Assembly (NCBI GenBank): GCA_016184115.1
Contig: JACPDH010000124.1
Span: 1 to 64,000 of the forward strand
Direction of reading: 5' to 3'
Length of the DNA stretch: 64,000 bases
Source: Acidobacteriota bacterium
Lineage (GTDB): Bacteria; Acidobacteriota; Thermoanaerobaculia; Gp7-AA8
Shown in pieces: positions 56,750 through 63,913 of this stretch. How positions within the stretch are numbered: position 1 is the stretch's first letter; the number at the start of each line of letters is the position of its first letter. The position numbers and the translations under genes are program-made. The notes below the pieces were generated by a model. It ran no database searches and had not been told where the DNA came from. It saw nothing but the letters and a program-made list of their open reading frames with translations.

Positions 56750-58788
56750 TCATTCGGTGATACTGGCGTCGAGCTTTCGCGTGTTGCGGTCGAGCGTCAC
56801 GCCGACTCGGTACACCGTCCCCGCGACTGTCGTCACGTCGAGGCTGCGCGACTCCCGGAACTTCCAGCTCGGGATGACGATCTCGACGACGAGCTTCGAC
56901 GTCGCGGGGTCGACGTTGCGATACGACGCCACGTTGCGCGGAACCTTGCTCTGCGCCATTCCCGTGCCCGCCTCGAAGAGGTTCTCCCTCAGAATCTGCT
57001 TGCCGTCGACGAGTACGACGACGTAGCCATCGTTCGTCGGGCTGTTGAGGCGGAGCAGGAACCCCGCCTTGCCTTCGGGTGGGACGGGCCCTTTGACGCG
57101 CGCGATCTGCTGGATCATCAGCCGCTCGCCGCTCAGCCGGACGTAGCGTCCCGGGTCGTTAGGGTTGCTCGGATCGAGGCGGAAGACCTCTTCGAACAGC
57201 TCGCGAGCCCGCTCGTACTGCCCCTGGTCGAACGCCGACTTCGCCACGTCGAATCTCCGCTGTGCGAGCTCGACAACCTGACGCTGCCGGGCGTCCAACT
57301 GCTGAATGCGTTCGATCTCCCGCACACGCCGCACAGCCCAGGGCGACCCGGGCGAAGTGGCCAATACTTCGCGGTACTTCGCCAGCGCCGCAACGAGATC
57401 TCCTCGTGCGTAGAGGCTGTCGGCTTCCGCTTTCCGCGCGCGTCTCGCCTCGAGCTGTTGGTCGAGCATGACGTCGCGCGGCGGCACGCTTTCGATCTTC
57501 AGAAACAGCAGGAGCAGGATCGCCGCGAGTGAGACGAGCAACGAGCCAGCTACGCCGAACATCAACACCGACGGGATGCGCATGCGTGCGAAACCGAGCA
57601 GCGTCGCCCGTAGCTTCGGCCACACCGGTTCCCTAACCGGTTCAGGAGGAGGAGGCAACGGCGGACGCCTCCCCTTTTTCGAGGTTTCGTCGCTCGATGC
57701 GTCGGACCCGATCGGCGCTTGCACTGCTTCGGCAAGCTCATCGGGCAGACGGGCGTCGACGGTGCGGAATAGGTCGCCTTCGATCTCGGTCACCGCCATG
57801 TGATCCGCGACACGCGCCGAGGTGGCTGCAGCCGCCGCGGCCTGCTTGTCCGGACGGAGCGAGTCGGCAAGCTTGCGAAGATCGACTGCGATGTCGCGTC
57901 CTCGCTGGTATCGCAGCGCCGGCTCCTTAGCGAGGCATTTCGACAGGATCGGCTCGAATCCCTGCGGGATCTTCGAATCGACGCGCCGCGGCGCAATGAA
58001 CGCTTCGTGGACGATCTTGTACGAGATCGACGTCAACGAATCGCCCGCGAACGGCTTCTTGCCGGTCAACGATTCGTACAGCACCACGCCGAGCGAGAAC
58101 AGATCGGTACGCCCGTCGACCGGTTGTCCCTTCACCTGCTCCGGCGCCATGTAGTTCGGGGTGCCGAGGAACTGTCCGGTCGTCGTCAGATTCGAGGAGT
58201 TCGAAGCGATCTTTGCGATCCCAAAGTCGGTGATCTTCGATCGCACACCTGTAAGCACGATGATGTTCGCCGGCTTGACGTCGCGATGGACGATCCCCTT
58301 CAGATGCGCGAAATCGAGCGCTTCCGCCACCTGCGCCAGGAGCTCGGCGAGCTCGTGCCAGGGCGGAACCTCTCGGCGGAGAATCAGTTCCCGCAGGTTC
58401 GTACCCTCGACGTACTCCATCGCAATAAACGAGACCTGATTCGCGCTGTCCTGCCCGAGATCGTGGACGGTGACGATCGCCGGGTGGTTGAGTATGCCGG
58501 CTGCCTGTGCTTCGCGGACGAAGCGCTCCTGGAACTCACGCTCTTCTTCGGCATCGGCCGACATGCCGAAACGAATCGTCTTGAGCGCCACCAGACGGCC
58601 GATGATCGGGTCGCGGGCGAGGTAGACGATCCCCATCGCTCCTTTGCCGAGCTCCCTCACGATCTCGTAACGGCCGAGCCGTTGCGAGCCGGAACCCTGG
58701 CTGGTTGTATTCGCGTTGGTGATGGGTCGCCCCCCCCCGAGTGATTGGAATGATAGCGCAGAGGTGCCTCCGGGGTGAGTTGGCTCAC
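56750..58788 (-). CDS. Membrane Ser/Thr protein kinase, N-terminus interrupted at a G9 tract
   Basis: Kinase domain: LGRYEIVRELGKGAMGIVYL (P-loop), Lys in VALKTIRFG, HRDVKPANI, DFGIAK, GTPNYMAPEQ; then a membrane helix (SVLMFGVAGSLLVSLAAILL) and a C-terminal region with TPR-like helices (ARGDLVAALAKYREVLA, QGQYERARELFEEVF). In the kinase frame there is no ATG, GTG or TTG between the kinase start and far inside divergent fusA. The other frame upstream of the run of nine G (58738-58730) has GTG at 58788 giving SQLTPEAPLRYHSNH; one extra G (or two fewer) joins it to the kinase. A sequencing error or slippage-based phase switch is likely. Confidence 0.85.
58730..58738. repeat. C9/G9 homopolymer at the start of the kinase gene
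   Basis: Nine consecutive C on the plus strand (G on the coding strand), longest such run noticed in the window, exactly where the kinase frame loses its start codon. Confidence 0.9.
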
Positions 58789-58789
58789 A

Positions 58790-58818
58790 TTCGACACGGC
58801 GCGGACGCGAGATATGAT
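58790..58818 (+). promoter_or_regulatory. Putative promoter of the EF-G-like gene
   Basis: TTCGAC, 17-nt spacer, TATGAT; predicted start near 58825 gives a leader of about 31 nt that includes the GAGGAG SD. It overlaps the presumed start of the divergent kinase gene. Confidence 0.45.
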
Positions 58819-58855
58819 TGGGCTCGCGAAGTTCAATCCCCCCCGAGGAGAGACC

Positions 58856-60952
58856 ATGAAAACGTACTCCGCTGCCGAGATCCGCAACCTCGCTGTCGTC
58901 GGTCACAACGACACGGGGAAGACGACCCTGGTCTCGCAGCTGCTCTTCAACGCAGGCGCCACGACGCGCCTGGGGTCGATCAACGAAGGCAGCACGGTGA
59001 CCGATTTCGATCAGGACGAGATCGATCGCAAACACTCGATCTCCACCGCAGTTGCGTGGGGCGAGTGGAAAGGTCAGAAGCTCAACCTGATCGACACACC
59101 GGGATTCGGCATCTTCATCATGGAGGCGAAGAGCGCACTGCGCGTCGCCGACGCGGCGGCCGTCGTCGTCAGCGCGGTGACCGGTGTCGAGGTCTCGACC
59201 GAGAAGGTTTGGAAGTTTGCGGAGGACTTCGAGCTGCCGCGGCTGATCGTCGTCAACAAGATGGATCGCGAGCGTGCTTCATTCACACGCGCTCTCGAGT
59301 CGCTGCAGAAAAAGTTCGGCAAGAACGTCACACCGATCCAGATCCCGATCGGCGAAGAGAAGGATTTCAGCGGGACGATCGACCTCGTCTCGATGCGAGC
59401 CTGGAAGTACGCGACGGACGGCTCGGGCAAATACGAGGTCATCGACATACCGGCCGACATGAAAGCCGATGCCGGCGAATGGCACGAGAAACTCGTCGAA
59501 AAGGTCGCTGAGGGCGACGACAAACTCATGGAAAAGTTCTTCGAGCAGGGCTCGCTCTCGCGAGAGGAGCTTCTCGACGGGCTCAAGCGCGAGATTGCTG
59601 CGCACGAGATCTTTCCCGTGGTCTGCGTTTCGGCGTCGCACAACATCGGCGGCCACGCAATCCTCGACGCGATCGTCGAGATGCTCCCTGCGGCCGACGC
59701 GCGCGGAAAGATCAGCGGCAAGGGCGCCGACGGCAGCGAGATCTCCTTCGACTGTAACGACAACGCCTTCCCTTCGGCCCTGATCTTCAAGACGACCTCG
59801 GACCCGTTCTCAGGGCAGGTGTCGCTGTTCCGCATTTTCTCGGGCACGTTCAAGTCCGACAGCGCCTACAAGAACACGTCGAAGGACCACGACGAGCGTC
59901 TCGGCAAATTGCAGGTGGTCCAAGGCAAGACCATGACACATGCGCCGGAGCTTCACGCGGGCGACATCGGTGCCGTGGCGAAGCTCAAAGACTCTCACAC
60001 CGGGGACACCCTCGCTTCGAAAGAACACCCGATCGTGATCCCGCACATCAAGTACCCGGAGAACTCGATCTCATTCGCGATCGAGCCGAAGACGAAGGGT
60101 GACGAGGACAAGCTCTCAACGGCGATCACGCGCATCATGGAAGAGGATCCTTCGATCCGCTTCGGTCGCGAGGAGCAGACGAAGGAGTTCCTCATATCGG
60201 GGCAGGGACAGCTCCATGTCGAGATCGTGATCTCGAAACTCAAGAGGAAGTACGGCGTCGACGTCATCCTCCATCCGCCGAAGGTTCCCTACCGCGAGAC
60301 GATCACGCGATCGGCTGACGCGCACGGACGGCACAAGAAGCAGTCGGGCGGCCACGGCCAGTTCGCAGACTGCAAGGTCACGATCGAGCCGTTGCCGCGC
60401 GGGGGAGAATTCGAGTTTGTCGACGAGATCTTCGGTGGCTCGATTCCGCGCCAGTACATACCTGCGGTCGAAAAGGGTATGCAGGAAGCGCGGGTGAAGG
60501 GCTACCTCGCGGGCTTCCCCGTCGTCGACTTCCGTGTCCGCCTCAAGGACGGCCAGTACCACGACGTCGACTCTTCGGAGATGGCGTTCAAAATCGCGGC
60601 GAGCCTCGCCTTCCAGGAGGGCATGGCGAAGGCAGGTGCGACCCTACTCGAGCCAATCATGCACGTCGACCTCTACGCGCCGGGCGAGTACATGGGAGAC
60701 CTGATGGGGGACCTCACTTCGCGCAGAGGCAAGGTCGAAGGGATGGATGCCGAGGATGACTCGCAGGTCATCCGCGCACAGGTTCCGCTCTCGGAGATGC
60801 TTACGTACGGCTCCACGCTCCGTTCGATTACGCAGGGGCGCGGGAGCTTCCACATGGAGTACTCGCACTACGAAGAAGTCCCGCGGCACCTCCAGGACAA
60901 GATCATCGCCGACGCACAGAAGGCCAAGGCGGAGAAGGCAGAGCACGCCTGA
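58856..60952 (+). CDS. Elongation factor G-like GTPase (FusA2 type)
   Basis: 698 residues, ATG with GAGGAG SD. GTPase motifs: G1 GHNDTGKTTL (EF-G proper has AHxDAGKTT), G3 DTPGF, G4 NKMDRE; followed by domains II-V including SGQGQLHVEIVISKLKRKYG and the GHGQFADCKVTIEP region, ending with an Ala/Lys tail. The altered G1 and Switch I (RLGSINEGSTVTDFDQDEID) place it among the second EF-G-like proteins rather than canonical FusA; it may act in ribosome recycling or be specialised. No ribosomal genes adjoin. A terminator follows at 60970. Confidence 0.88.
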   Translation: MKTYSAAEIRNLAVVGHNDTGKTTLVSQLLFNAGATTRLGSINEGSTVTDFDQDEIDRKHSISTAVAWGEWKGQKLNLIDTPGFGIFIMEAKSALRVADAAAVVVSAVTGVEVSTEKVWKFAEDFELPRLIVVNKMDRERASFTRALESLQKKFGKNVTPIQIPIGEEKDFSGTIDLVSMRAWKYATDGSGKYEVIDIPADMKADAGEWHEKLVEKVAEGDDKLMEKFFEQGSLSREELLDGLKREIAAHEIFPVVCVSASHNIGGHAILDAIVEMLPAADARGKISGKGADGSEISFDCNDNAFPSALIFKTTSDPFSGQVSLFRIFSGTFKSDSAYKNTSKDHDERLGKLQVVQGKTMTHAPELHAGDIGAVAKLKDSHTGDTLASKEHPIVIPHIKYPENSISFAIEPKTKGDEDKLSTAITRIMEEDPSIRFGREEQTKEFLISGQGQLHVEIVISKLKRKYGVDVILHPPKVPYRETITRSADAHGRHKKQSGGHGQFADCKVTIEPLPRGGEFEFVDEIFGGSIPRQYIPAVEKGMQEARVKGYLAGFPVVDFRVRLKDGQYHDVDSSEMAFKIAASLAFQEGMAKAGATLLEPIMHVDLYAPGEYMGDLMGDLTSRRGKVEGMDAEDDSQVIRAQVPLSEMLTYGSTLRSITQGRGSFHMEYSHYEEVPRHLQDKIIADAQKAKAEKAEHA

Positions 60953-62376: not shown

Positions 62377-62802
62377 CTACGACTTCTGGTCGTCCTCCGA
62401 GACGGTCTCCGCGTCATCGGCGATCATCGCCGGACCGTCGTCGGTCATGACCGACTCGTCCGATGGTGCGGCCTCGAAATCTTCTTCGCGCTCGGCGAGC
62501 AGACGGATCGCGTCGGCCTCCCGTTCTGCATCGACGAAGACGCGGATCTCGCCCATGGTGCCGATGTTCACAGGCAGCATGTTGACTTCGAGCGACTCGT
62601 ATTGCGACGGGATCCCCTCAGCCTGGAGAAATCCCCGAACCATGCGCGCTTCTTCTTCCGAACCAACAGTCGCGATTTCGACCCAGGTCGTGGTGTCGCC
62701 TTCGACCGTCTGATACGGCAGCTCGTCGACGAGCGCGACCTTGTCGTCAGGGCATTCGGTCTTTGCTTCGAATTCGCGCTTGCACACCGGGCAGTACGCC
62801 AT
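62377..62802 (-). CDS. Zinc-ribbon plus DUF2007 protein
   Basis: 141 residues, ATG with GAGGAGG SD. N-terminal knuckle MAYCPVCKREFEAKTECPDD, then a DUF2007 (putative signal-transducing) domain: VGSEEEARMVRGFLQAEGIP and VFVDAEREADAIRLLAERE; acidic tail. It lies 34 nt behind selD and 5 nt before the PEGA-like gene, so the three are probably one unit. Confidence 0.8.
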   Translation of the reverse strand: MAYCPVCKREFEAKTECPDDKVALVDELPYQTVEGDTTTWVEIATVGSEEEARMVRGFLQAEGIPSQYESLEVNMLPVNIGTMGEIRVFVDAEREADAIRLLAEREEDFEAAPSDESVMTDDGPAMIADDAETVSEDDQKS

Positions 62803-62836: not shown

Positions 62837-63913
62837 TCACGCGACGAGCTCGATCGTTCCAGCTCGTTCGGTCATCTCGCCGATTCTGCTACAGAGCGTA
62901 CCTGTCGTGGCGGCTTCCGTCTCAAGCAGTTTCGCGTTCTCGGGCGCCACCGCGATGAGCAGGCCTCCGCTCGTCTGCGCGTCGCAGCAGAGCGTGAGGT
63001 CGTCCTCGCCAGCGCGTAGCTCGACCGAGCTGCGGAACGCGCTCTCATTGCGTCGCGTGCCTGCGGGCACGTATCCCTTCGCCATGAGCTCGCGCACACC
63101 CTCGATCACCGGAATCGCGGAGGCGGAGATTCGCGCGCCGGCACGAGCGCCGTTACACATCTCGCGCAAGTGACCGATGAGCCCGTAACCCGTCACGTCG
63201 GTACAACCGGTCGCGTGCGCGGCGACCATCGCTCGCGCCGCGTCTCGGTTCAGCAGCTGCATCCAGCCTACTGCGTCGTCGAACGCGGGTATGTGCTTCC
63301 TCCCGATTCCCCATCGCGTTCGCTCCGTCTGAGCGCGATAGGCGGCGACGGCAACGCCGTTGCCGATCGGTTTCGTCAGGTAGAGCAGATCGCCAGGCCG
63401 CGCTGTCGAATTGAGCACGACCGCATCGGCATCGCAGACTCCCGTAACCACGAGCCCGTACTTTGGAACGTCATCGATGATCGTATGCCCGCCAGCGATC
63501 GGAAACCCCGCTTCCTTCGCCTTGGTCGCACCACCCGCGAAAATTTGTTCGAGCACCTCGAGCGGCAACTTCTCGGTCGGAAAGCCGGCGACCGCGAGCC
63601 CAAGTATCGGCTCGGCCCCCATCGCGTAGACGTCGGAGATGGAGTTCGCCGCGGCAATCGCGCCGAACAGAAACGGGTCGTCGATCACGGGGGTGAAGAA
63701 GTCGACGGTCTGCACGAGCACACGTCTACCGTCGATGCGAAACACCGCTGCATCGTCGTTGTTCTCATGCCCCACGAGCAGGGGCCCGGAGACCGTGTCG
63801 ACCGGGAGGCGCGAGAGAATGCGGCGCAGGTCATCCTGACCCAGCTTGCACGCTCACCCGCCAGTCGTGGCGAATGACGAAAGTGGGGGATGACGGCGAA
63901 TCTTTGCCTTCAT
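62837..63913 (-). CDS. selD: Selenide, water dikinase with selenocysteine in the active site
   Basis: Makes selenophosphate. An uninterrupted reading frame starts only at 63775 (GTG, GHENNDDAAVF) and lacks the catalytic loop. Reading through a UGA at 63856-63854 from the ATG at 63913 gives 358 residues: SFATTGG-Sec-ACKLGQDDLR, where SelD families have Cys or Sec followed two residues later by the essential Lys. Conserved DDAAVF, SISDVYAMGAEPILGLAV, GGHTI and CDAQTSGGLLIAV follow. A 5-7 bp hairpin with a GGA loop begins about 10-12 nt behind the UGA and fits a bacterial SECIS. An in-frame TAA just upstream of the ATG rules out a longer start. Confidence 0.9.
63827..63843 (-). promoter_or_regulatory. 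Putative bacterial SECIS element in selD
   Basis: Minus-strand GGTCA-GGA-TGACC (63841-63829), extended by two G-U pairs, starts about 10-12 nt behind the UGA; the loop GG is 18-19 nt from the UGA. Bacterial SECIS elements need a stem-loop with Gs at the loop start 16-37 nt from the UGA, as in this case. Confidence 0.55.

Follow-up and report, generated by a model that had tools for sequence, protein, structure and literature searches.

The selD gene in the window (the whole stretch of DNA analyzed, 64,000 nucleotides from an Acidobacteriota bacterium) is read here as encoding a selenocysteine (Sec)-containing selenophosphate synthetase, with Sec delivered at codon 20 via SelB and an RNA hairpin (probability about 0.97); its in-frame UGA almost certainly inserts Sec at the active site. 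Both Sec insertion and SelD enzyme activity in this bacterium are what we infer from sequence. That selD is a selenoprotein gene, as proposed in an earlier sequence-only reading of this DNA, was upheld by (i) the same TGA in relatives, (ii) a SECIS element kept at synonymous sites, (iii) the presence of selA and selB in the genome, and (iv) another gene of this genome that carries a Sec-type TGA in frame. The features concerned are as follows.

62837..63913, minus strand: selD coding sequence of 358 amino acids plus stop, Sec UGA in frame (from translation, family match, and orthologues)
63911..63913, minus strand: ATG start codon of selD, four codons after an in-frame TAA
63854..63856, minus strand: TGA read as selenocysteine, codon 20 of selD, where E. 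coli-type SelD has Cys
63828..63842, minus strand: bSECIS core hairpin GGGUCA-GGA-UGACCU, stem 11 nt and loop 17 nt after the UGA
63773..63775, minus strand: GTG start of the ordinary (truncated) selD open reading frame (plain table-11 ORF)

Read from 63913 to 62837 on the minus strand with TGA as U, the frame runs from MKAKIRRHPPLSSFATTGGUACKLGQDDLRR... to ...GTIELVA and closes with TGA, interrupted only once, by the internal TGA that forms codon 20 (GG-U-ACK); many relatives carry ATG or GTG at the position of this start. The plain table-11 ORF begins at the GTG at 63775, 138 nt (46 codons) 3' of the ATG, and comprises 312 amino acids without the catalytic loop. A start 46 codons upstream of the called ORF had been proposed from the letters alone, and the ATG at 63913, set against the GTG at 63775, bears this out. 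The gene model is hence corrected to a SelD with 46 additional N-terminal residues, the catalytic loop among them; an in-frame UGA arrangement of this kind is easily truncated by gene finders.

The read-through protein matches the selD family model TIGR00476 (NCBIfam) at 361.5 bits (cut-off 125), with residues 11-326 aligned to profile positions 2-310 of 311; the restored N-terminus therefore belongs to the family, and the claim that read-through recovers the SelD N-terminus and its GGUACK loop holds, since the restored part lies within the match. Pfam domains AIRS and AIRS_C are both present. Against the solved Cys-type SelD (PDB 3u0o; 235.8 bits, residues 11-352), the alignment with Cys-type enzymes that had been suggested as a check pairs U20 with the first Cys of the GCGCK motif and K23 with its Lys, such that the catalytic Cys/Sec and Lys of the N-terminal loop (U-x-x-K) are present as U20 and K23.

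The UGA codon in related genomes

Conservation of the codon was followed in a set of 19 genomes from the GTDB family and order (G000-G018, G000 being the genome under study). TGA stands at codon 20 in 18 of the 19 SelD genes and TGC in the remaining one (G010), while an ordinary stop preceded by unrelated sequence, the outcome named beforehand as damaging to the Sec reading, was not encountered among these near relatives. The UGA is thus conserved in orthologues whose coding sequence extends to either side of it, and Cys replaces it in the non-Sec orthologue, which is the pattern expected of a bacterial selenoprotein. A species-genome scan returned 13 close Acidobacteriota/Thermoanaerobaculia SelD sequences (57-82% identity), with TGA at the same codon in 12 and TGC in one (L022), the latter identical to the SelD of G010. 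Since 17 orthologues from other genomes have the same TGA, its occurrence in selD is not due to chance.

The same comparison bears on the proposal that the TGA arose from faulty sequencing or assembly of a Cys (TGC/TGT) or other codon. The genome is indeed a draft in 126 contigs; however, the second genome of the genus, whose SelD protein is 82% identical, carries the same TGA, as do another 16 from the family and order. The chance of such an error is practically nil, and on the sequences of these independent orthologues the proposal can be considered already refuted. A real stop, leaving either a pseudogene or an active but shorter protein begun at the GTG at 63775, is likewise very improbable: the 312-amino-acid ORF with its GTG start does exist, but it would lack the catalytic loop, and conservation extends across the stop in 18 genomes and takes in the residues ahead of the TGA (PxLSSFAT[TS]GG).

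Beyond the family and order, whole-genome searches gave a SelD match in 61 of 61 genomes, the weakest being matches only to related kinases. More distant classmates display Sec forms, Cys forms, and forms within open frames that are some 750-1150 codons long, the last of which may be fusions. In the maximum-likelihood SelD tree there are two label changes, and each of the two Cys rows falls inside a Sec clade; two separate Sec-to-Cys changes are therefore the natural reading of these sequences. The Cys genes in question are L147 (G010) and L156 (G033), in both of which the SECIS codons have drifted. G010 retains selA and selC in spite of its Cys-type SelD, and other selenoproteins probably remain in it.

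The hairpin behind the UGA

The GGA-loop, SECIS-like hairpin that had been noticed behind the UGA was found as described (GGGUCA-GGA-UGACCU), with a 6-bp stem and a 3-nt loop beginning with G. The published model of bacterial SECIS elements calls for a loop of 3-9 nt with G in its first two places, a stem of 4-16 bp, a distance of 16-37 nt from the UGA, and a folding energy of at most -7.5 kcal/mol (PMC13188914); the selD hairpin lies within these limits for loop size, loop G, stem, spacing, and energy. The expectation that the region would fold accordingly was sustained in part. In this genome the 46 nt from the UGA have a minimum free energy of -17.1 kcal/mol with the hairpin included in the fold, but relative to shuffled sequences the folding energy is unremarkable (z from 0.39 to -1.68, depending on the stretch), and several relatives have some other structure as their minimum-energy fold of these 46 nt. 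For these reasons, a test at synonymous sites that is independent of folding was used; covariation counting was left aside within the family, as the hairpin core is invariant there.

None of the 18 Sec genes departs from GGT-CAG-GAT-GAC at codons 25-28. Across these genes, 128 positions have an invariant amino acid (Met and Trp left out), and at only 10 of them is the codon invariant as well; codons 25-28 make up four of the ten and form the only adjacent run in the gene. With positions taken as exchangeable and kinship ignored, the chance of four named positions all falling among the ten is 2e-5. All other invariant glycines of the Sec-SelD genes vary in codon. The Cys orthologue L147 retains the same residues (GQDD) as GGG CAG GAC GAT, with three of the four codons synonymously changed and the stem disturbed. 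In another family of the class, the Sec gene L153 has GGT where its Cys-type sister L156 has GGA, and in a third family the loop residue varies (GQADL, GQSDL) while GGGTCA...TGACCT is kept. Hairpin codons are thus fixed in Sec genes and drifted in Cys genes, so these codon patterns indicate that selection acts on the selD RNA hairpin, and only where the UGA is present. This restriction to TGA genes also speaks against both a miscalled codon and a real stop. It further offers a natural comparison, in that SECIS codons have drifted where the UGA became a Cys codon.

Selenocysteine machinery and selC

The Sec reading had implied that selA, selB, and selC lie elsewhere in the genome; the first two were located, and selC was not found in the assembly. 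The selA gene is on contig C31 (493.6 bits) and selB on contig C111 (335.2 bits over the open frame, both stretches of the frame covered). Among relatives, selA was detected in 18 of the 18 searched and above cut-off in 17, the match in G006 beginning at a contig end. A second UGA gene is present, i.e., formate dehydrogenase alpha (fdhA, C121:7876-9888, minus strand; L202), which contains one in-frame TGA in the motif HQCAATUHAPTVAGL; fdhA with the same TGA motif occurs in G001, the other genome of the genus.

The tRNA-Sec gene was sought in this assembly with an Rfam search, a model built from the sequences of twelve relatives, and patterns, without success. One Rfam tRNA-Sec match over cut-off (contig C59, 50.5 bits) was rejected as a tRNA-Ser with anticodon TGA, and the best Rfam matches checked in this genome were tRNA-Ser and other tRNAs. 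The model from relatives scores 109 bits in G018, one of its own source genomes, and at most 47 bits here, at a tRNA-Ser; matches to the anticodon-arm pattern were set aside as tRNA-Ser or chance. Nor does selC lie beside selA or selB in this genome; in relatives it is located elsewhere. Twelve other family genomes and the order member do carry a canonical tRNA-Sec with anticodon TCA; besides the present assembly, the gene was not found in G001, G002, G003, G005, and G016.

These absences would suit a loss of selC in the genus, with the UGA read through in the absence of a true Sec system, e.g., by a near-cognate tRNA. Such a loss is highly unlikely, as is the related notion that in the genus and some near genera selC is absent or too unlike known tRNA-Sec, selA, selB, and two UGA genes being retained and the UGA read by an unrecognized tRNA, to which we give the same slight credence. 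Both selA and selB are intact in this genome. Moreover, in many relatives selC is flanked on one side by two ExbD/TolR-like genes and on the other by a gene that looks like a type-4 prepilin peptidase by sequence, for which NCBIfam gave no match. The ExbD pair is present here (C36:4941-5831), but the contig ends at 5893, 62 nt past the pair, within a 7-bp tandem array of 7.9 copies of AAATGCG (C36:5839-5893; L184:2399-2453), and this assembly lacks the prepilin-peptidase-like gene, the second neighbor of selC in relatives. Contigs break at the same site in G005, 24 nt after the ExbD pair, and in G002, 173 nt upstream of the other neighbor of selC. G009 has selC, with short repeats around it as well, whereas its congener G016 (87% complete) lacks both selC and the prepilin-peptidase-like neighbor.

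An assembly gap is the best explanation for the missing selC, the presence of which in the organism is inferred, not proven. The lack of selB or of a tRNA-Sec gene had been put forward as grounds for rejecting Sec in this gene; selB is present, and although tRNA-Sec is literally missing from the assembly, its absence does not refute the Sec reading because its syntenic site is an assembly break at a contig end. A selC missing from draft genomes can thus be an assembly effect of adjacent repeats.

Proposed mechanism, known systems, and neighboring genes

In the mechanism proposed for Sec-containing SelD, SelB would bind the hairpin that closely follows the UGA and bring Sec-tRNA(Sec) to codon 20. 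Selenophosphate would be made with two residues of a mobile N-terminal loop, Lys23 and Sec20, the latter standing where E. coli SelD has Cys17; SelA would then use the selenophosphate to convert seryl-tRNA-Sec to Sec-tRNA-Sec. SelD would in this way take part in making its own Sec residue.

Sec-SelD is a large, known selenoprotein family, of which the present gene is one more member; Sec-SelD/SPS2 genes have been reviewed (PMC13188914, PMC4561486), in agreement with the remark in the sequence-only reading that Sec-containing SelD is known from other bacteria. Shared with Sec-SelD/SPS2 (TIGR00476) are an N-terminal loop that has Sec at the site equivalent to Cys17 and Lys three residues further, a bSECIS in the coding region directly after the UGA, and selA and selB in the genome; there is no substantive difference, the GGUACK motif being the form found here and the hairpin GGGUCA-GGA-UGACCU a typical one for this lineage. 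SelD of the Cys (E. coli) type, as in PDB 3u0o, is alike in family and in residues otherwise, but has Cys for Sec, has no in-frame UGA, and needs no SECIS. The formate dehydrogenase bSECIS similarly lies behind the UGA and has a short stem and a small apical loop that begins with G, whereas its stem sequence differs, that of selD being fixed by SelD codons. To these known systems the present work adds an Acidobacteriota family whose members almost all have Sec-SelD.

Directly 3' of selD, on the same strand, lies a gene for a DUF2007 protein (window positions 62377-62802, minus strand). Also in the window are an elongation factor G gene (58775-60952, plus strand; 933 bits to the EF-G subfamily model) and a Ser/Thr kinase with TPR repeats (frame 56750-59035, minus strand), which overlaps the EF-G gene at its start; given this overlap, the true starts of both genes are probably inside their open frames.
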